The position numbers were made by a program, and so were the translations under genes. The notes beneath the pieces are model-generated. The model was given only the letters and a program-made list of their open reading frames with translations. It had not been told where the DNA came from and did no database searches. 46,076 bases of DNA from Nesterenkonia salmonea (lineage in GTDB: Bacteria; Actinomycetota; Actinomycetes; Actinomycetales; Micrococcaceae). The DNA lies in contig NZ_VAVZ01000021.1 in the NCBI RefSeq assembly GCF_005771525.1, positions 10,975 to 57,050 on the forward strand, written 5' to 3'. Below, piece by piece: positions 36,161 through 46,009 of this stretch (the first letter of the stretch is position 1; the number at the start of each line of letters is the position of its first letter).

Positions 36161-36264
36161 CGACCAAAGCTCATGCAGCAAGGGTGGGTGTCGCAAGGCG
36201 CGGTAGGTGTGGTTGGGTGCCAACCAGCAAGAGCACCGCGTGTCATGGGAACGCCTTGAACCCG

Positions 36265-36284
36265 ATTCGAATATGTGTTCGAAT
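36265..36284. promoter_or_regulatory. LexA-type SOS box
   Basis: ATTCGAA at 36265-36271 and TTCGAAT at 36278-36284 are perfect 7-bp arms around TATGTG. The core TCGAATATGTGTTCGA (36267-36282) matches the actinobacterial SOS consensus TCGAAC-N4-GTTCGA at all but one position. It ends 6 bases before the radical SAM ATG, so LexA bound here would block transcription. Confidence 0.8.
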
Positions 36285-36290
36285 GGCTGC

Positions 36291-38411
36291 ATGCGTTGGG
36301 ACAGTCAGAGGATCAATGAGGCTGCTGCTCCGGCGCTGCTGCCCATGCAGAACTTGGTGCGAACGGTCCGGACTCCAGAATTCGAAGGTGTCACTTTCCA
36401 CGAGGTCGCAGCGAAGACCGCACTGAACAAGGTGCCCAAGGCGTCGAACATGCCCTTTGGATGGACGGTGAACCCCACACGTGGATGCCTCCACCAGTGC
36501 CGTTACTGCCTGAGTCCCGACACCCTGATATTGATGGCGGACGGCAGAAATAAACGGCTGGACGAGATCCGGGTCGGCGACCGCATTGTGGGAACCTCAC
36601 TGGGTGACCGTTACCGCTACTACGTGGAAACTGAAGTCCATGCGCTGTGGGCGACTCGAAAGCGTGCTCATCGCATCGTCCTTCAGGATGGAACTGAGCT
36701 TGTAGCGAGTGGTGATCACCGGTTCCTGACGGAACGAGGATGGAAGTATGTTGCACCTCCGCGGTCAGGCATGGGCCAGCATCCATACCTGACCACCAAC
36801 AACTCGCTCATGGGTTTTGGGCTTGGAAGTGCAAGCAGCGCATACCCAAGGCCGCTGAAGAACGCGTCGTACCGACGTGGCTACCTTACGGGCATGATCC
36901 GTGGGGACGGCATGCTTATCGACAAAACATACACCCGTCGTAGCAACGGTGCTCCGTATCGCGTGACCATTTTCCGGCTTGCATTGGTCGACGCCGACGG
37001 GCTTGCCAGGAGCCAGGCATATTTAGCACAGGAGGGCATCACAACAACACTGAAGCCCTTCTTAGCTGCGACGTCATCCCGCAAGGCGCTCAACATGATT
37101 GTGACAAGCAAACGCGACCACTTCAGCCGAATACAGGAACTGATCTCCTGGCCGAGGGTCCCCGATGGCCAATGGGAAAAAGGGTTCCTGGCAGGCGTTT
37201 TCGACGCCGAAGGATCACTGTCGGGAAATGTTCTGAGAATTTCGAACTCGGATGAAGAAATTCTCAGTCACGCAGAAGAAGCATTGACGTACTTTGACAT
37301 GCCGTTCGTGCGGGAAAAGGCCCGTGAGAACGGAGTCGCGACGATCCGACTTACCGGTGGCAGGAGCGGTCACAGAAAGTTCCTTCATGTTGTCGAGCCA
37401 GCAATCACCAGAAAACTCGCAATACTGGGAAAAGCAGTGAAGACCTCTTGCGACCTTGGAGTAGCGAAGGTTGAGGACCTTGGCGTTGATGTGCCCATGC
37501 TAGACATTTCGACAGGGACCGGCGATTTCATCGCTAACGGAGTTGTCAGCCATAACTGCTTCGCGCGGAAAACGCATGAGTACCTCGATATGGACTCAGG
37601 CCAGGACTTCGACACCCAGATCGTGGTCAAGACCAATGTAGCCGAGGTCCTGCGTGCAGAACTGGCCAAGCCCAGCTGGCAGCGCGAACATGTGGCTCTT
37701 GGGACCAACACCGATCCCTACCAGCGGGCGGAAGGGCGCTACCGGCTGATGCCCGGGATCATCACAGCACTCGCCGACTCAGGCACCCCGTTCTCCATTC
37801 TCACCAAAGGCCCCCTGCTGAAGCGCGACCTCCCCCTGCTCAAAGAAGCCGCTGAGAAGGTGCCCGTCTCCGTGGCGGTCTCACTGGCCATCATGGACAC
37901 TGAGCTCCAGCAGAAGGTCGAACCAGGAACCCCCGACCCGCGCGCCCGGCTCAACCTGGTCAAAGCCATTGCGGATGCGGGACTGGAATGCAATGTGCTC
38001 GCCATGCCCATCCTGCCCTGGCTCACCGACTCCGCTGAGCACCTGGACCTGCTCCACAAAGAACTCGCGCGGGCCGGTGCCGGCTGGGTCACCACAGGAG
38101 CGCTGCACCTGCGCCCCGGTGCCCGCGAGTGGTACATGCAATGGCTGAAAGAGGAGTACCCGCTGCTGGTGCCGCGCTATGAGGAGCTCTACCGAGGAGC
38201 GCGCGGCGGATTCGCCACCTACGCCTCCGCGGACTACAAGAAGTGGCTCGGCCAACAAGCTGCTTCAGCACGACGACGCCACGGATTCCTCGACCACGCT
38301 GAGGCCACCTGGCGCGGACGCACCTCACCTGAGAAACCAACCGCTGACCACGAGTCACAGCTAGTGCCCCTGGACATCCCCACAGGGCCCGCCCAGCCAG
38401 CGCTCTTCTAA
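36291..38411 (+). CDS. Rv2578c-family radical SAM protein, intein-containing precursor
   Basis: 706-residue precursor. After removal of the intein (residues 73-422) the host protein is 356 residues, the normal length for this SplB-like radical SAM family. N-extein: MRWDSQ start, PFGWTVNPTRGCLHQCRY. C-extein: CFARKTHEYLD, GTNTDPYQRAEGRYRLM, ITALADSGTPFSILTKGP, and ARAGAGWVTTGALHLRPG. The 4Fe-4S motif CLHQC-RY-C is whole only after splicing, as its third Cys is the +1 residue of the C-extein. ATG 36291 matches the family start; an upstream frame to 36207 covers the SOS box. No ribosome-binding site is seen, so the start may be leaderless. In mycobacteria Rv2578c is, to my knowledge, a LexA target, which fits the SOS box here. 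The reaction is not known. Confidence 0.92.
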   Translation: MRWDSQRINEAAAPALLPMQNLVRTVRTPEFEGVTFHEVAAKTALNKVPKASNMPFGWTVNPTRGCLHQCRYCLSPDTLILMADGRNKRLDEIRVGDRIVGTSLGDRYRYYVETEVHALWATRKRAHRIVLQDGTELVASGDHRFLTERGWKYVAPPRSGMGQHPYLTTNNSLMGFGLGSASSAYPRPLKNASYRRGYLTGMIRGDGMLIDKTYTRRSNGAPYRVTIFRLALVDADGLARSQAYLAQEGITTTLKPFLAATSSRKALNMIVTSKRDHFSRIQELISWPRVPDGQWEKGFLAGVFDAEGSLSGNVLRISNSDEEILSHAEEALTYFDMPFVREKARENGVATIRLTGGRSGHRKFLHVVEPAITRKLAILGKAVKTSCDLGVAKVEDLGVDVPMLDISTGTGDFIANGVVSHNCFARKTHEYLDMDSGQDFDTQIVVKTNVAEVLRAELAKPSWQREHVALGTNTDPYQRAEGRYRLMPGIITALADSGTPFSILTKGPLLKRDLPLLKEAAEKVPVSVAVSLAIMDTELQQKVEPGTPDPRARLNLVKAIADAGLECNVLAMPILPWLTDSAEHLDLLHKELARAGAGWVTTGALHLRPGAREWYMQWLKEEYPLLVPRYEELYRGARGGFATYASADYKKWLGQQAASARRRHGFLDHAEATWRGRTSPEKPTADHESQLVPLDIPTGPAQPALF
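36507..37556 (+). other. Intein with LAGLIDADG homing endonuclease
   Basis: 350-residue in-frame insertion. Block A: CLSPDTLILMADGRNKRLDEI with Cys1. Block B: GTELVASGDHRFLTERGW with the conserved His. Endonuclease motifs: YLTGMIRGDG at intein residue 126 and GFLAGVFDAEG at 226, each with an acidic residue, so nuclease activity is possible. Blocks F/G: DISTGTGDFIANGVVSHN, ending in His-Asn followed by Cys+1. All splicing residues are present (class 1 mechanism). Base use is visibly richer in A/T than in the flanking exteins, consistent with horizontal transfer. Confidence 0.95.
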
Positions 38412-41400
38412 ATGAAGTCCTTCGGGGTGGCCGGACCAGGTTCGTAATTCCCCGCCCCAGAAGAGACGATCAGACCTTCAGCCAGCGCGCATTGGAACAC
38501 CTCATCCAAACGCTTCTGAATCTTCGGCCCCATCCGCTGATGACCGTACAAGCGGGCCACCGACCGTAGGATGTCATCCTCCGGGGCGCGGAAAGCCCTC
38601 CGGAGCACCTGGACCATCACCTGGGACAACTCGTCGTAAGACACCTTCTCCACATGGCGCTCCTCCACCCGGATTGGACCTGATTCATCGGTTCCTGATT
38701 CAGCGGTTTCTGAGTCCGTGCCGTCCGGTTCACCCGCCTCCGGGGCTGTTGATTCAGGGTGTGCGGGGGCAGTGAGGGTCTGGTCGGGAGCGTCTTGAGC
38801 GTGCTTGGCGGCACTCTCGGCGGCAGAGCGGATACGTTCAACAACAGCCTCTGCATCCCGCAACCACTCGGGCAACCAGATACGCTCCACCTCAGACCAG
38901 CCCATGGTGCCGACGAGCACCGACTGCGGAAGCGCATCTCGGTCACCCACCGTGCTGCGCTGAGCCCACTCCGGACCATCCAGAAGCACCGCCACCCACG
39001 GCTGGCCCGCCCAACGCACCGCGAAGTCCACATGAAAATCCGACAGTCCAACCCGCGGAATGACCTCAAGGCCGGCCTTCAGCAATCGGTTGTGCACTTG
39101 CTCAGCATGACGATCCGCTGCGGCACCTGCTGAATCCTGCGTACCCGTGAGTCGTTCAGTGCCGTCGCGGGCGGCCAGCAGATACTCCTTCAGATCAGCC
39201 AAACCCTGAGATGTAGAGTTGCGCAGATCCAGCTCATGAGGCTCGAAAGAGCAGATGATCCGCACCGCTTGACGAGCACGAGTGACGGCCACATTAAGCC
39301 TGCGCTCACCACCGGCGGTGGTCATCGACCCCCACTGCAACGGAACCCGGCCATTGGCATCCCGGGAGAACGCCAGGGTGAAGATCACCGCATCGCGCTC
39401 ATCACCCTGGACGTTCTCCAAGTTCTTCACGAACAGCGGTTCCTCATCACGGGCCAGAGCATCCTGAATGAGCTGTTCCTCGCTGGCCTCCAACATGTCC
39501 AGCAGCAGATCACGCTGCTGCACATTGAACGTCACCACGCCGATGCTCTGGTCTGGATCCTCGGTGAGCAGCTCGATGACTTCGGCGACAACCTCCTCAG
39601 CCTCCACACGGTTGACCCTGGCGGCACCGCGCCCACCCTCCCACTCGCCATCGACTACGCGCAGCCGCACAGCATCAGAGCCAGAAGCACTAGGTGGCGC
39701 AGGGAAAGTCGACAGCCGGTCCTGGTAGTACTGCCTGTTGGAGAACGCAATGAGGGACTCGTCCTTGGACCGGTAGTGCCAGGTGAGCCAAAGTCGGGGG
39801 AGTCCTGACTCGTGGGCCTCAGAGAGTATCGAGTCCAGATCCGCAGGAACCAGGGCGTCGTCGTGATCATCCTCGCTCTCAGCATGGGCAAACGTCGAGG
39901 TCGGGGGCATCTGTTTGGTATCACCGACGACCACCACGGAACGTCCCCGGCCCATGGCCCCGATAGCCTCCGGCACACGAATCTGTGAAGCCTCATCAAA
40001 GACGACCACATCAAAGTCCACTGCATCAGCAGGCAGGAAGCGAGCCACCGAGTCCGGGCTCATCAGCAGACACGGTGCGGCCTCGGTGATGAGGTCGCCG
40101 AATCGGTCGAACAGCTGCCTGATGCGCAGTCCGCCCCGCCTCCGGCCGATCTGCTGCTGCAGCTGCGCCACCGCGCCCACATCAGCATTCGGCGCGAATT
40201 GGCGGGCCTCGATCAGCTCAGCTGGCAGCTGGGTGCGCAGCATGTGCCGGCGGCGGCCGGTGGCCTCAGTGAACTGTTGGATACGGCGGCCATGGGCGGT
40301 CTGATCGAACCGGTGAAGACCCGTGGTGTGCAGCCGTTCATCCAACACAGCCTCAGTGAGCGCCCTGCGCAGTCCCTGCTCGACGTCGCCGGCGGGAATC
40401 TGCTCATTCAGGGCGGCCTCGGTCACCGTTTCCAACCCTCGTGAGCGGAGGGCTTCTGCGGCAGCAGCCAGTGCAGACCACCTGCCCAGTTCCAGCAGCA
40501 CCTCGTCATAGGAATCTGCCCGCCATGCATCAGCGCAGGCTGTCAACGCTGCGGAGAGTGTCGGGTTTGGATGGCCGGTGATGCCGCGCGCCCAGCGCAG
40601 GACTGAGCGGTCGTCAGCGGCCAAAAGGTCGAGCAGATGAGACCAAGCGGCAGCGAACCGTTCGTTCTGCCCTGCAGACACATGGAGAAGCTGACCGTTG
40701 TTGAACACTTCTTGAGCTAATCGGCGGGCCTCCTCGGCGTGGTCCGAGGAGCGGAAAGCGGCCTCCACGTCCGCCCAGGCCTGCCTCAAAGCAGCCAGCG
40801 AACGGAAATGATCCGCCAAGTGATCGGGATCGATCGCGCTGCGCAGGCTGACGTGTTGGCTGATGTCGTCCAGAAGGCGTTCCTTGCGGCGTCGCTTCCC
40901 AAACGGCCAGAACCTGTCATCAATCTCCTGGGCCCGCTGAGCCAAATGCTCAGTGTCCAGATCAAGTGCCGAGGCGGTGAAACCCGGGGTCAGCGCCCTG
41001 ATCCACCCGAGTACGGCCTCAGCTTGTTCGGAGGTGAGCGCCAGGCTGAACAGCTGCGCCGCCGGGGAGTCAGGAACATCGTGGTGGGCATCCAGCAGTT
41101 CGGTCACAGCATGGGTGGCCTCCTGTGGGCTCCACTGGTCAGGTGTTACGCGTGCCAGGGCCCAAGGGTGAGAGGTGGGGTTGGTGCCCAGGTCGATCAG
41201 GGCACGGTCGGCTGCGGCGGCGTCGTCGTACACGGTGCTCAGATCTCCCAGTGTCCGGGCCGTTTCCCGGTCGATGGAGAGCCCAGCCTGGGGTGCGCCG
41301 TCTTCTGCGGAGAGTTCTAGGCTCAGTTGGTGCGCCTGCCATGCGCTCAATTCCGCTGGCCCGGGGGAGTGGAGGCGCTTCGGGTAGTCAGCCAGTTGCT

Positions 41401-43774
41401 GGGCCGACGAGGTCGCGCGGGATTGGACCGCATCCCACGCCACAGGTTGTGCAGCTGAGACCTCCAATGCCTGACGGATCTGTTCACGCACTGCAGTCAG
41501 CGATTGGTTGCGGCCGTGAACATCCAGTGTGAACGGTCCCAGCCCGACATCTTCCAGTCGGCGCTGGACCACATCCAGGGCCGCCTGCTTCTCCGCGACG
41601 AACAGCACCTTCTTCCTGCGGTGCACACATTCGGCGATCAGGTTGGTGATGGTCTGGGACTTCCCCGTCCCAGGTGGGCCCTCAAGGATGAAGCTCTTGC
41701 CAGCGCTTGCCCACTGCACCGCCTGAATCTGGGAGCCATCAGCCGGCACGGGGAGCCGCATGGTGGTCTCAGCAAGGGGTTCCAGGTCGGGGGTGGCGAC
41801 GGCGTCGTCATAGGGTTCCCCGGGATGCTCCACCAGGTGCCTGACATGTGGCCGGGTCATGAAGTGCTGCCAGTTCTCACCCATATCCCGCCACAGGTCC
41901 AAGGTGGAGAACTGGGCCAGAGCAAGATGCGCAGATTCCTCCACGGTGAAGTGCTCCAGCCGCTCATCCAGCAGAGTGCGGCGGACGTGTTCCAGCGCGG
42001 TGTGCACATCGACCCGGCCATCACGCATCGGCGGATTCAGCAGCGACTCAAGCGTCAGGCCCAGCTCAGAGCGGATCTTCTCCACCACGGAGATGTTCGC
42101 GACCGTTTCCCTGGTCTCATCCAGGGTGACCCGGAACGGCGTGCTGCCACGTCCCCCGCTCAGGTTCACAGGTACCAGGAACAGTGGGGCGCGGCCGCCA
42201 CGGTTGCGTCCGCCGCGTGGGCCGGCTTCCTCCCAGGTCAGCAGCCCTGCGGCAATATACAGCGGATTCGCGCCCGTCTCCTCTGCGGTGGTGCGGGCCC
42301 GGCGCTGCAGTGAGCGCAGCCGGCGAAGAAACTCAGTGAAACCCAGGACCGCGAAGATACGGTGTTCGTGTTCCAGAATGGTGGTCAGCACCCCGGAGTC
42401 CACATCGGCGGCGGTGCGAGCCCCCTGAGCTTTGTGCAGATCGTCGATATCGCCGTGTTCATCCACTGTTAGCCGCATCCCCGAGGCCAGCAGCTCCACC
42501 AGAAGGTCCAGGGCGCCTGCCGGAACGTGCAACTCGGCTGAGTACGTTGCTCTCAGCCGCAGCAGCGGGTTGCGGTAACTGAGGTCCAATAGGGAACGCC
42601 GCCAGCGTTGAATCCTCAGCGGGGCCTCTGGGCTCCCCGCCTCCTTCGGACGTTCCTCGGTGGGCTGGGCTGGAGTGGATCTCTGGGTCGACGACGCCGG
42701 GGCAGTCTTCACGACCTCCACCACTCGGGTGTCGCCCTCCCACCGAATATTCGGCAGGGCAGAGATGCGCCGTTGGGCAGCGTGAACGTCAATGAGGTAG
42801 AGGCCCTCGCGTTCATAGCTGGACCACCAGTGCAGGGCGTGGCCGGCGGCGTCGTCGAATGTCATGGTCTGCTCACCACGGCAGAGACCGGTGACCTCAA
42901 GCGTTTCGAACATCTGCGAATCAGCGATGGTCGCGATCGCGGCAGGGGAGTCCACCACCGGGGCGGGGAGTCGGTGCGGCTCTGCAAGCCAGCTCAGCAG
43001 GGCATGACGCTCGCTGACGGCCACCACGCTGTGGATGCCTGCGCGTTCGATGGCGGCGGCCATCATGGTCACCAGCTCAAGGGTGGTTGCCCGGCCGCGC
43101 TCCAGCACATCAGAGGGCGAACCAATGCGGTGCCGGCCGTCCATCAGGCTCTCAGCTGTGCTGATATGACCCAGTTGGAGGGTACTGAGCACATGGTAGA
43201 TCCCGCGGACGATTTGCCTGACCCGCCCGGGGCCGGAGTGGTATCCGGCAATCTCTGCTGAGCCTGTGAAGTGCTCCAGGGCGGCGGAGGTTTCATCCAT
43301 AAGCTCGGTGATTGCGGGGTCGTGGGGCCGGATGAAAGCGGCCAAGGATTCGCGGATGCCCTCAGCACCCCACACATCCTCGGGTAGTACCGTGATCGGT
43401 GCAGTAGCAGGAGTGGCGCCCGAGGTTTTTTCTTGGGCGTGGAGGTAGGTCTGAGCGGCTGAGTCCAGACTCAGCAGCGCAGGTAAGCTCAGCGGCCAGT
43501 GGAGATCCCGGGCCGGGGTGCTGTAGATCTCTCCGGCGGTGAGCGCGGGAACGTGTAGTGTGTGCGGTGCCGCAGCCAGTTCGAGCTCTGGGCCAATGGG
43601 GTCGAGGTGGAGCTCGAGGTCCAGCGGCGGTGAATCCTGCGTGCTGGTGTTGGTGATTTCTGCCGCTGAGATCAGCGGCACCTGATTGTGCATCAGGGCA
43701 TAGTTGAGCGATTCGCGGAGATGGATGACCACGCCGATACGGCCGTCCTGTGCGCTCAGTTCCAGTGTGCCCAT
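38408..43774 (-). CDS. DUF4011 - SF1 helicase - PD-(D/E)XK/Vsr-like nuclease - DUF3320 protein
   Basis: 1788-residue multi-domain protein. Residues about 1-190: beta-rich N-terminus. About 220-290: transglutaminase-like segment (VLERGRATTLELVTMMAAAIERAGIHSVVAVSERHALLSWL) in which the usual catalytic Cys is Thr. From about 388: DUF4011 (RRSLLDLSYRNPLLRLR). Helicase core: EGPPGTGKSQT Walker A near 698, VVVFDEASQIRVPEA Walker B near 1258, GDTKQMPPTS, WHYRSKDESLIAFSN, NVQGDERDAV, LNVAVTRAR. Then a nuclease-like domain near 1565-1650 (GLSDFHVDFAVRWAGQPWVAVLLDG), and DUF3320 near 1715-1770 (YDELSQVMVQVLRRAFRAPEDDILRSVARLYG). The start ATG 43774 has AGGA 7 bases upstream; the longer frame to 44080 overlaps the MhuD-like gene. 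The architecture resembles the reported antiviral DUF4011-helicase-Vsr (Hhe) type. Confidence 0.88.
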   Translation of the reverse strand: MGTLELSAQDGRIGVVIHLRESLNYALMHNQVPLISAAEITNTSTQDSPPLDLELHLDPIGPELELAAAPHTLHVPALTAGEIYSTPARDLHWPLSLPALLSLDSAAQTYLHAQEKTSGATPATAPITVLPEDVWGAEGIRESLAAFIRPHDPAITELMDETSAALEHFTGSAEIAGYHSGPGRVRQIVRGIYHVLSTLQLGHISTAESLMDGRHRIGSPSDVLERGRATTLELVTMMAAAIERAGIHSVVAVSERHALLSWLAEPHRLPAPVVDSPAAIATIADSQMFETLEVTGLCRGEQTMTFDDAAGHALHWWSSYEREGLYLIDVHAAQRRISALPNIRWEGDTRVVEVVKTAPASSTQRSTPAQPTEERPKEAGSPEAPLRIQRWRRSLLDLSYRNPLLRLRATYSAELHVPAGALDLLVELLASGMRLTVDEHGDIDDLHKAQGARTAADVDSGVLTTILEHEHRIFAVLGFTEFLRRLRSLQRRARTTAEETGANPLYIAAGLLTWEEAGPRGGRNRGGRAPLFLVPVNLSGGRGSTPFRVTLDETRETVANISVVEKIRSELGLTLESLLNPPMRDGRVDVHTALEHVRRTLLDERLEHFTVEESAHLALAQFSTLDLWRDMGENWQHFMTRPHVRHLVEHPGEPYDDAVATPDLEPLAETTMRLPVPADGSQIQAVQWASAGKSFILEGPPGTGKSQTITNLIAECVHRRKKVLFVAEKQAALDVVQRRLEDVGLGPFTLDVHGRNQSLTAVREQIRQALEVSAAQPVAWDAVQSRATSSAQQLADYPKRLHSPGPAELSAWQAHQLSLELSAEDGAPQAGLSIDRETARTLGDLSTVYDDAAAADRALIDLGTNPTSHPWALARVTPDQWSPQEATHAVTELLDAHHDVPDSPAAQLFSLALTSEQAEAVLGWIRALTPGFTASALDLDTEHLAQRAQEIDDRFWPFGKRRRKERLLDDISQHVSLRSAIDPDHLADHFRSLAALRQAWADVEAAFRSSDHAEEARRLAQEVFNNGQLLHVSAGQNERFAAAWSHLLDLLAADDRSVLRWARGITGHPNPTLSAALTACADAWRADSYDEVLLELGRWSALAAAAEALRSRGLETVTEAALNEQIPAGDVEQGLRRALTEAVLDERLHTTGLHRFDQTAHGRRIQQFTEATGRRRHMLRTQLPAELIEARQFAPNADVGAVAQLQQQIGRRRGGLRIRQLFDRFGDLITEAAPCLLMSPDSVARFLPADAVDFDVVVFDEASQIRVPEAIGAMGRGRSVVVVGDTKQMPPTSTFAHAESEDDHDDALVPADLDSILSEAHESGLPRLWLTWHYRSKDESLIAFSNRQYYQDRLSTFPAPPSASGSDAVRLRVVDGEWEGGRGAARVNRVEAEEVVAEVIELLTEDPDQSIGVVTFNVQQRDLLLDMLEASEEQLIQDALARDEEPLFVKNLENVQGDERDAVIFTLAFSRDANGRVPLQWGSMTTAGGERRLNVAVTRARQAVRIICSFEPHELDLRNSTSQGLADLKEYLLAARDGTERLTGTQDSAGAAADRHAEQVHNRLLKAGLEVIPRVGLSDFHVDFAVRWAGQPWVAVLLDGPEWAQRSTVGDRDALPQSVLVGTMGWSEVERIWLPEWLRDAEAVVERIRSAAESAAKHAQDAPDQTLTAPAHPESTAPEAGEPDGTDSETAESGTDESGPIRVEERHVEKVSYDELSQVMVQVLRRAFRAPEDDILRSVARLYGHQRMGPKIQKRLDEVFQCALAEGLIVSSGAGNYEPGPATPKDFI

Positions 43775-43843
43775 GGGCCCATCCTGCCCTGTGTGCAGTG
43801 AGCAGGGGTGCCCATGACACGGTGACAGTGCCAGAATAGGTTC

Positions 43844-44158
43844 ATGAGCAGTGTTATCAAGATCAACGCCATCACCGTCCCCGAAGACTCCGGAGATCAA
43901 CTGGGTGAGCGGTTCGCCGCCCGACGCCACTCCATGGAAGGTACCCCGGGATTCCAGGGATTCGAGCTGCTGCAGCCCACCGATGGGCGCATCTCTTGGT
44001 TGGTGCTTACCCGGTGGGACTCGGAGGAAGCCTTCGAGAACTGGCGGAACTCCCAGAGTTTCGGTGCCTCGCATGGTCACAAGGACGGCGAAGCGCCTCA
44101 GAAGCCTGTGGGCATGTCCAGCGAACTGTGGAGCTACACGGTGTTCACCACTGGCTAG
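43844..44158 (+). CDS. MhuD/HmoA-like haem-degrading monooxygenase
   Basis: 104-residue ABM-fold protein close by eye to mycobacterial MhuD: VIKINAITVPEDSGDQLGERFAARRHSMEGTPGFQGFELLQP, LVLTRWDSEEAFENW, SHGH and ELWSYTVF. The Asn that orders haem oxygen chemistry (KINAI, residue 7) and the axial His (SHGHK, about residue 78) are both present. It would open haem to release iron in the cytosol. The start is ATG 43844; CAGAAT six bases upstream may be a -10 for leaderless expression. It is divergent from the giant helicase gene by 69 bases. Confidence 0.88.
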   Translation: MSSVIKINAITVPEDSGDQLGERFAARRHSMEGTPGFQGFELLQPTDGRISWLVLTRWDSEEAFENWRNSQSFGASHGHKDGEAPQKPVGMSSELWSYTVFTTG

Positions 44159-44222: not shown

Positions 44223-45758
<1,536 letters not shown>

Positions 45759-46009
45759 TGACCCCTGAGTAGTGGACACTGCATTGTGTACTATCAGGCG
45801 GCAAGATCGAGCATAGGGGCCTGGCCCGCTTCGAAGTCAAGCGGGGATCGATAACTCAATGAGGAGTGCCTCCTACGGGTGTTGTACCGGGTGATCCACC
45901 GGAAGACCTCGGCGCGGCACTGGACCTGGGTTTCCCAGCGTTTGGCCCCCTGCAGGGTCTCTCGCTTCAGGGTGGCGTTGAACGATTCCGCCAGCGCATT
46001 ATCGGCACT
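45759..46009 (-). mobile_element. IS3-family insertion sequence, 3' fragment
   Basis: Minus-strand C-terminal part of an IS3-type OrfB transposase, from SADNALAESFNATLKRE through EVFRWITRYNTRRRHSSLSYRSPLDFE, ending at a stop at 45794-45796. The segment includes the last catalytic Glu of the DDE triad (in ALAESF). The element end is TGACCCCTGAGTAGTGGACA (plus strand, from 45759), which starts with TG as IS3 ends do. Upstream coding sequence stops abruptly at about 46009, where a TAA (46010-46012) breaks the frame. Confidence 0.85.

Follow-up and report, generated by a model that had tools for sequence, protein, structure and literature searches.

A gene of Nesterenkonia salmonea raises the question whether inteins are ever retained as switches or persist only as parasites. 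In a 46,076-nucleotide stretch of contig NZ_VAVZ01000021.1, called here the window, a single open frame (36207-38411, plus strand, 734 amino acids from the first start codon) encodes a radical SAM protein of the Rv2578c family whose cluster motif is interrupted by an intein. The initial annotation had placed the 350-residue intein at 36507-37556, directly before the third cysteine of the cluster motif, and had proposed that oxidants or metals could gate activation of the enzyme through splicing. In our view the insert is, with high probability, a functional mobile intein of class 1 whose splicing has to precede enzyme activity; any redox sensitivity would at most be a by-product.

The insertion site

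The likely true start of the gene is the ATG at 36291, i.e. residue 29, where the alignments to the models NF038136 and NF038135 begin. From there the N-extein (36291-36506, delimited by codon reading and alignment with intein-free alleles) ends in RGC(-7)LHQC(-3)RY(-1), with the first and second cysteine of the CX3CX2C motif at 36486-36488 (position -7) and 36498-36500 (position -3). The codon of Tyr-1 ends at 36506, and the intein (36507-37556, delimited by codon reading and comparison with empty and intein-bearing alleles) begins with Cys1, the first nucleophile (36507-36509). The host resumes with CFARKTHEYLD; the C-extein (37557-38411, from codon reading, host models and empty alleles) starts with Cys+1 (37557-37559), the third cluster cysteine once spliced. 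Thus the insertion is exact to the codon, empty alleles run straight through, and codon reading supports the double role of Cys+1 as splicing nucleophile and third cluster ligand. The precursor itself reads a contiguous CX3CX2C consisting of C-7, C-3 and C1 (C-LHQ-C-RY-C1), so that Cys1 stands in the place of the third ligand, again as had been noted. Read across the junction, splicing of the exteins restores CLHQCRYC and leaves a host protein of 356 amino acids from Met 36291. The gene had only one match in the source genome.

The precursor scored 773.1 bits against NF038136, the model of intein-containing Rv2578c family radical SAM proteins (cut-off 700, E 2.1e-232), and 498 bits against the host model NF038135 (cut-off 430). 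Because it passed NF038136 and at least 554 relatives turned up in a scan of genome contigs, the element is not new and belongs to the known NCBIfam NF038136 kind, from which, judged by model name and scores, it differs in nothing of substance. The Pfam models Radical_SAM (PF04055, 49.4 vs 29.5) and LAGLIDADG_3 (PF14528, 26.7 vs 22.5) were passed, while Intein_splicing (PF14890) was missed with 21.5 bits vs a gathering score of 35.8, and TIGR01445 (intein_Nterm) was passed only by the intein alone and only by 0.3 bit (24.8 vs 24.5). The assignment as an intein is carried by the Hint fold match and the splicing residues. The predicted model shows a Hint fold that spans residues 73-422 and opens with Cys1, and the rows of the fold match cover residues 70-424, the intein part; confidence was low at the motif (predicted local distance difference test, pLDDT, 59 for residues 61-70) and at the C-side junction (55 and 47 for residues 421-440). 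Sequence searches of PDB gave no match from two intein-free alignments and weak matches only from the intein.

Class 1 inteins have Cys or Ser at position 1, a His in block B, a terminal Asn and Cys, Ser or Thr at +1. C1, H71, H349-N350 and C+1 are all found here. His71 (36717-36719; SxxH instead of TxxH) and Asp333 (37503-37505), which we take to be the residues of blocks B and F, and the terminal His-Asn of block G (residues 349-350, 37551-37556) were present in 117/117 distinct inteins; Cys1 was likewise found in 117/117, partly by construction, since the junction scripts required a Cys at position 1 and Ser1 rows were read separately. The endonuclease domain (approximately 36858-37421) is of the LAGLIDADG class by its two motifs, LTGMIRGDG and LAGVFDAEG, with the catalytic acids Asp134 (36906-36908) and Glu235 (37209-37211), by its PF14528 score and by the fold match. 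I-DmoI (PDB 4unb and others), one of the closest known systems, differs in being intron-encoded and free-standing, outside any intein.

Anatomy, flush site, empty alleles, conservation and patchy presence are read directly from the sequences, from which we infer that the intein splices, that the endonuclease cuts and that the cluster follows splicing. Alleles without the intein would be the target of the endonuclease, which would home to the codon of the third cluster cysteine; the needs of the enzyme keep this site conserved at both the DNA and the protein level. The precursor would be inactive as a radical SAM enzyme, its chain being severed at the cluster loop; that splicing is needed first for a normal enzyme would thus follow from the site. 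By default splicing should be spontaneous: Cys1 would attack Tyr-1, the chain would be transferred to Cys+1, and with cyclisation of Asn350 RGCLHQCRY would be rejoined to CFAR, making the cluster motif and removing the insert in one step. Cluster loading would come afterwards.

Full, mini and empty alleles

Eighty of the at least 554 relatives were kept for reading of the site. All 80 were flush, 79 with Cys1 and one with Ser1, the latter a natural variant in Cryobacterium algoritolerans (locus L068, 2501-3580). The intein is common in actinobacteria. Of 396 Actinomycetota genomes sampled evenly, 39 had a match to it at E 1e-5 or better, and the precursor was matched in 129 at 1e-25. The intein was present in 35 of the 128 sampled genomes with an Rv2578c/PA0069-type gene, a count that leaves out G285 and G172, with the intein in DUF5131 and QueE, respectively, as well as G185 and G221, whose weak matches lie in other long frames. 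Besides the window's own, 29 loci were fetched from the sample; 28 were flush at both ends and one, L139, is cut by its contig. A contig titled Stenotrophomonas maltophilia (L051, JACEFY010000027.1) also holds the actinobacterial intein gene, probably by contamination.

Within the genus Nesterenkonia the site was read in 29 of 30 genomes; the remaining one (G025, 82% complete) gave no match. Six genomes carry a full intein of 348-352 amino acids, nine a mini-intein of 158-188 amino acids that has lost the endonuclease, and 14 are empty. Counted among the empty is G016 (62% complete), in which the radical SAM gene (locus L031) is broken and has no intein. Every intein of the genus is flush (C-x3-C-x2-/C1...HN/C, slashes marking the junctions), and empty alleles are uninterrupted across the junction, e.g. 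L008 with RGCLHMCRYCFARKTHEYL. L008 is the nearest relative by extein and provided the seamless alignment to an intein-free homologue that the initial annotation had envisaged, with 93% identity over 356 columns.

A quick extein tree, in which two long branches meet, was built from 29 rows of the genus together with L007 (another genus of the family) and L030 (the order), 31 in all; on it presence and absence of the intein require 8 changes. The mini forms are scattered over about five places of a quick intein tree with some weak forks (L010; L012; L011; L018 with L019; L015, L016, L020 and L021), which makes repeated loss of the endonuclease in the genus probable. For the nine pairs of mini-inteins the ratio of nonsynonymous to synonymous substitution rates (dN/dS) was 0.11-0.27 vs 0.04-0.09 in their exteins; in the three pairs of full inteins intein dS was saturated. 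GC content at third codon positions (GC3) was 0.606 in the window intein vs 0.753 in its extein. As a residence clock GC3 was discarded; that of the splicing domain lay on average 0.11 below that of the extein in 7 full inteins and 0.05 below it in 9 mini-inteins, which is not significant (p 0.07).

Several observations weigh against a working mobile intein. Intein and extein distances correlate (Spearman 0.80, 120 pairs), so much of the history inside the genus is vertical. One pair of a full and a mini-intein had an intein dN/dS of 0.42. A search for a co-conversion tract gave no clear signal: identity between the window gene and L008 dropped to 0.77 directly before the site, in a single bin of 30 bases, vs 0.84-0.94 in the other bins. 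Finally, block B usually has a Thr and block F a His; here Ser replaces the former and the latter is missing, which might slow splicing. These variant residues, and the broken copy of G016, would also suit a dead insert, an intein that no longer splices in what is now a pseudogene. We consider this highly improbable, given the open frame of 734 amino acids with all junction residues present and an extein dN/dS of 0.10-0.11 between the window gene and two other full-intein genes.

The same motif position in other enzyme families

Junction reading and sequence comparison showed homologous inteins at this point of the motif in PA0069, DUF5131 and QueE, three more families of radical SAM or radical SAM-like proteins. 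In the PA0069 family seven intein loci were recognized by their junction motif; one of them, L121, scores 452.9 vs a cut-off of 360. DUF5131 is represented by a plasmid gene of Streptomyces sp. P9-2B-2 (PF07505, 320.6 bits; GCDRVSKGCDN/C1...THN/CYALTLAKRLK), adjoined by a TcmP gene, and by a gene in G285 (GCDQTSPGCDN/C1...THN/CYAMTLSKRLQ). The cysteine spacing at this site is Cx7CxxC, and the kinship of DUF5131 to radical SAM proteins is drawn solely from a match to TIGR04471 (radical SAM mobile pair protein A; E 1e-18) which at 67.6 bits lies well under the cut-off of 355. Profile comparison of DUF5131 with Rv2578c gave a match of 30 columns at the cysteine motif only, with a probability of 25. 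The QueE intein comes from one genome, G172 (TIGR03365, 309.7 vs 206.1), and has Ser1 (GGCDYRCSW/S1VTCNTPIM...SRN/CDSKFAV), while the loci of other genomes and of viral contigs read GGCDYRCxWCDS without interruption. The window intein matched the G172 QueE intein with E 6.4e-13 and the G285 DUF5131 intein with E 6.1e-26, with shared blocks. In an intein tree of 49 rows those of PA0069 group together (support 94), nested among those of Rv2578c; the DUF5131 and QueE inteins lie outside, QueE on a very long branch.

As to a phage vehicle, a search of viral contigs with the intein profile matched no relative. An intein was absent from 79 of 80 viral DUF5131 loci, the other one, L165, starting inside the gene; 33 of 34 QueE loci (6 from genomes, 28 viral) were without intein and L268 gave no motif. 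Weaker matches to the intein occurred in portal and terminase genes of Gordonia phage and mycobacteriophage, respectively, and in long frames from further actinobacterial genomes (G185, G221 and others). Not all relatives of the intein sit in radical SAM proteins; the site rule holds for the rows that were read. In Virus Rctr197k (L033, 1792-5061, KX853510.1) a gene named radical SAM protein-like is SNF2-like and contains an intein relative with 26.5% identity over its full length, from which the name probably comes. Two Halobaculum plasmids (L285, L286) have intein-like LAGLIDADG genes that resemble the DUF5131 intein, with no readable splice junctions or host.

Redox, metals and an early cluster

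The Pyrococcus abyssi MoaA intein, reportedly the subject of Callahan et al. 2011, provides the closest precedent for gating, one that was absent from the initial annotation and strengthens the idea. Its native disulfide between Cys-3 and Cys1 reportedly can control activity (PMC3922620) and blocks the first splicing step under oxidising conditions (PMC10663303). The second cluster cysteine of the window gene stands at this same position -3 of the reported redox trap (PMC3922620). The two inteins share a radical SAM host, a Cys at -3 and Cys1, and the spacing suggests that the P. abyssi intein, too, precedes the third cluster cysteine; counting it, from the literature, five enzyme families would have an intein at this position. 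It differs in belonging to another enzyme and another domain of life, and in that disulfide control was reported there.

An adaptive switch would operate as follows: under oxidants a bond forms between Cys-3 and Cys1, or else Cys1 takes up zinc, and splicing halts. The host enzyme, which is oxygen-labile, would then remain unspliced and inert until reducing conditions return to the cell, and full and mini-inteins alike would be retained for this control. We regard this as unlikely. Besides the MoaA arrangement it can draw on the M. smegmatis DnaB intein DnaBi1, whose catalytic cysteine is reversibly blocked by oxidants and zinc (PMC6195587, PMC7360933). This is control of the kind that had been proposed for the window intein, yet DnaBi1 is of class 3 and forms its disulfide with an internal cysteine, while the splicing region of the window intein has no conserved second Cys. 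Nor is any other Cys position of the whole intein conserved as a second redox partner; the commonest holds Cys in 54/106 inteins and lies inside the endonuclease. A switch would also fit the mini-inteins, found in 9 of the 15 intein-bearing genomes of the genus and under purifying selection, and the position shared by related inteins in four families. Yet mini-inteins should be under purifying selection in any case, since failed splicing costs the enzyme, and a parasite would likewise be expected to use the position repeatedly and to persist in mini form where nothing but exact loss is tolerated. Cys-3 is a ligand of the enzyme and, like Cys-7, is there in intein-free alleles as well, so it is no evidence of adaptation. 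An obligate lock is weakened by the two Ser1 variants (L068 and the QueE of G172), since Ser1 cannot form that disulfide. Moreover, the nearest relative by extein lacks the intein, as do 14/30 genomes of the genus. Of the traits of a redox-controlled intein the window intein has only the Cys-3/Cys1 geometry.

A second route to control would be a cluster that forms early on C-7, C-3 and Cys1 and holds Cys1 from splicing until it is lost. The precursor has the right spacing, C-LHQ-C-RY-C(1), whereas the predicted model places Cys1 at the beginning of the Hint fold (residues 73-422), albeit at low confidence at the motif and junction, and Ser1 variants could form no such trap. It thus appears very doubtful, and the P. 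abyssi disulfide, as reported, is the best model for the proposed gating, better than an early cluster. The M. tuberculosis SufB intein is likewise found in an iron-sulfur related protein, yet one for cluster assembly, for which the cited findings concern N-extein histidines rather than cluster ligands (PMC8891592).

Taken together, of the initial interpretation the flush site, the double role of Cys+1 and the placement of Cys1 stand, and the regulatory device is not supported. For the preferred reading, a mobile intein that splices spontaneously, a Cys-3/Cys1 disulfide or a bound metal could still slow splicing under oxidants or zinc as a by-product of the site: every Cys1 intein at this position has Cys-3 beside Cys1 because C-3 and C-7 are there for the enzyme. 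That one intein lineage recurrently uses the third radical SAM cysteine, has moved between Rv2578c, PA0069, phage- and plasmid-borne DUF5131 and QueE, and hands each oxygen-labile enzyme a redox lock, Cys-3 being in every case the second cluster cysteine, with mini-inteins as the domesticated form, is conceivable, though we would not expect it. Literature searches found nothing that pairs an intein with Rv2578c or with DUF5131, a weak negative as subscription papers were mostly outside the search; for inteins with radical SAM or queuosine nothing on this site was seen, again a weak negative from partial coverage.

Downstream, a gene on the minus strand (38408-44080) converges on the intein gene with a 4-base overlap. 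It encodes a DUF4011 helicase of 1890 amino acids with an MTES_1575 nuclease domain, for which PADLOC lists the candidates PDC-S37 (852 bits) and Hhe (386 bits). It is adjoined by a large serine recombinase gene (44234-45784, minus strand; Resolvase, Recombinase and zinc ribbon domains), and both may form a mobile defence island.

For annotation, intein-bearing PA0069, DUF5131 and QueE proteins fall under the NF038136 cut-off, and a viral helicase bears a radical SAM name apparently derived from its intein. What merits further attention is that the position recurs among radical SAM families and that a single genus holds three allele states. Four families of radical SAM or radical SAM-like proteins use the position, and archaeal MoaA supplies a precedent for a redox trap. 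The full, mini and empty alleles that a single enzyme has within this genus, together with natural Ser1 variants that lack the Cys-3/Cys1 pair, would offer a clean natural test of whether an intein is kept as a switch.
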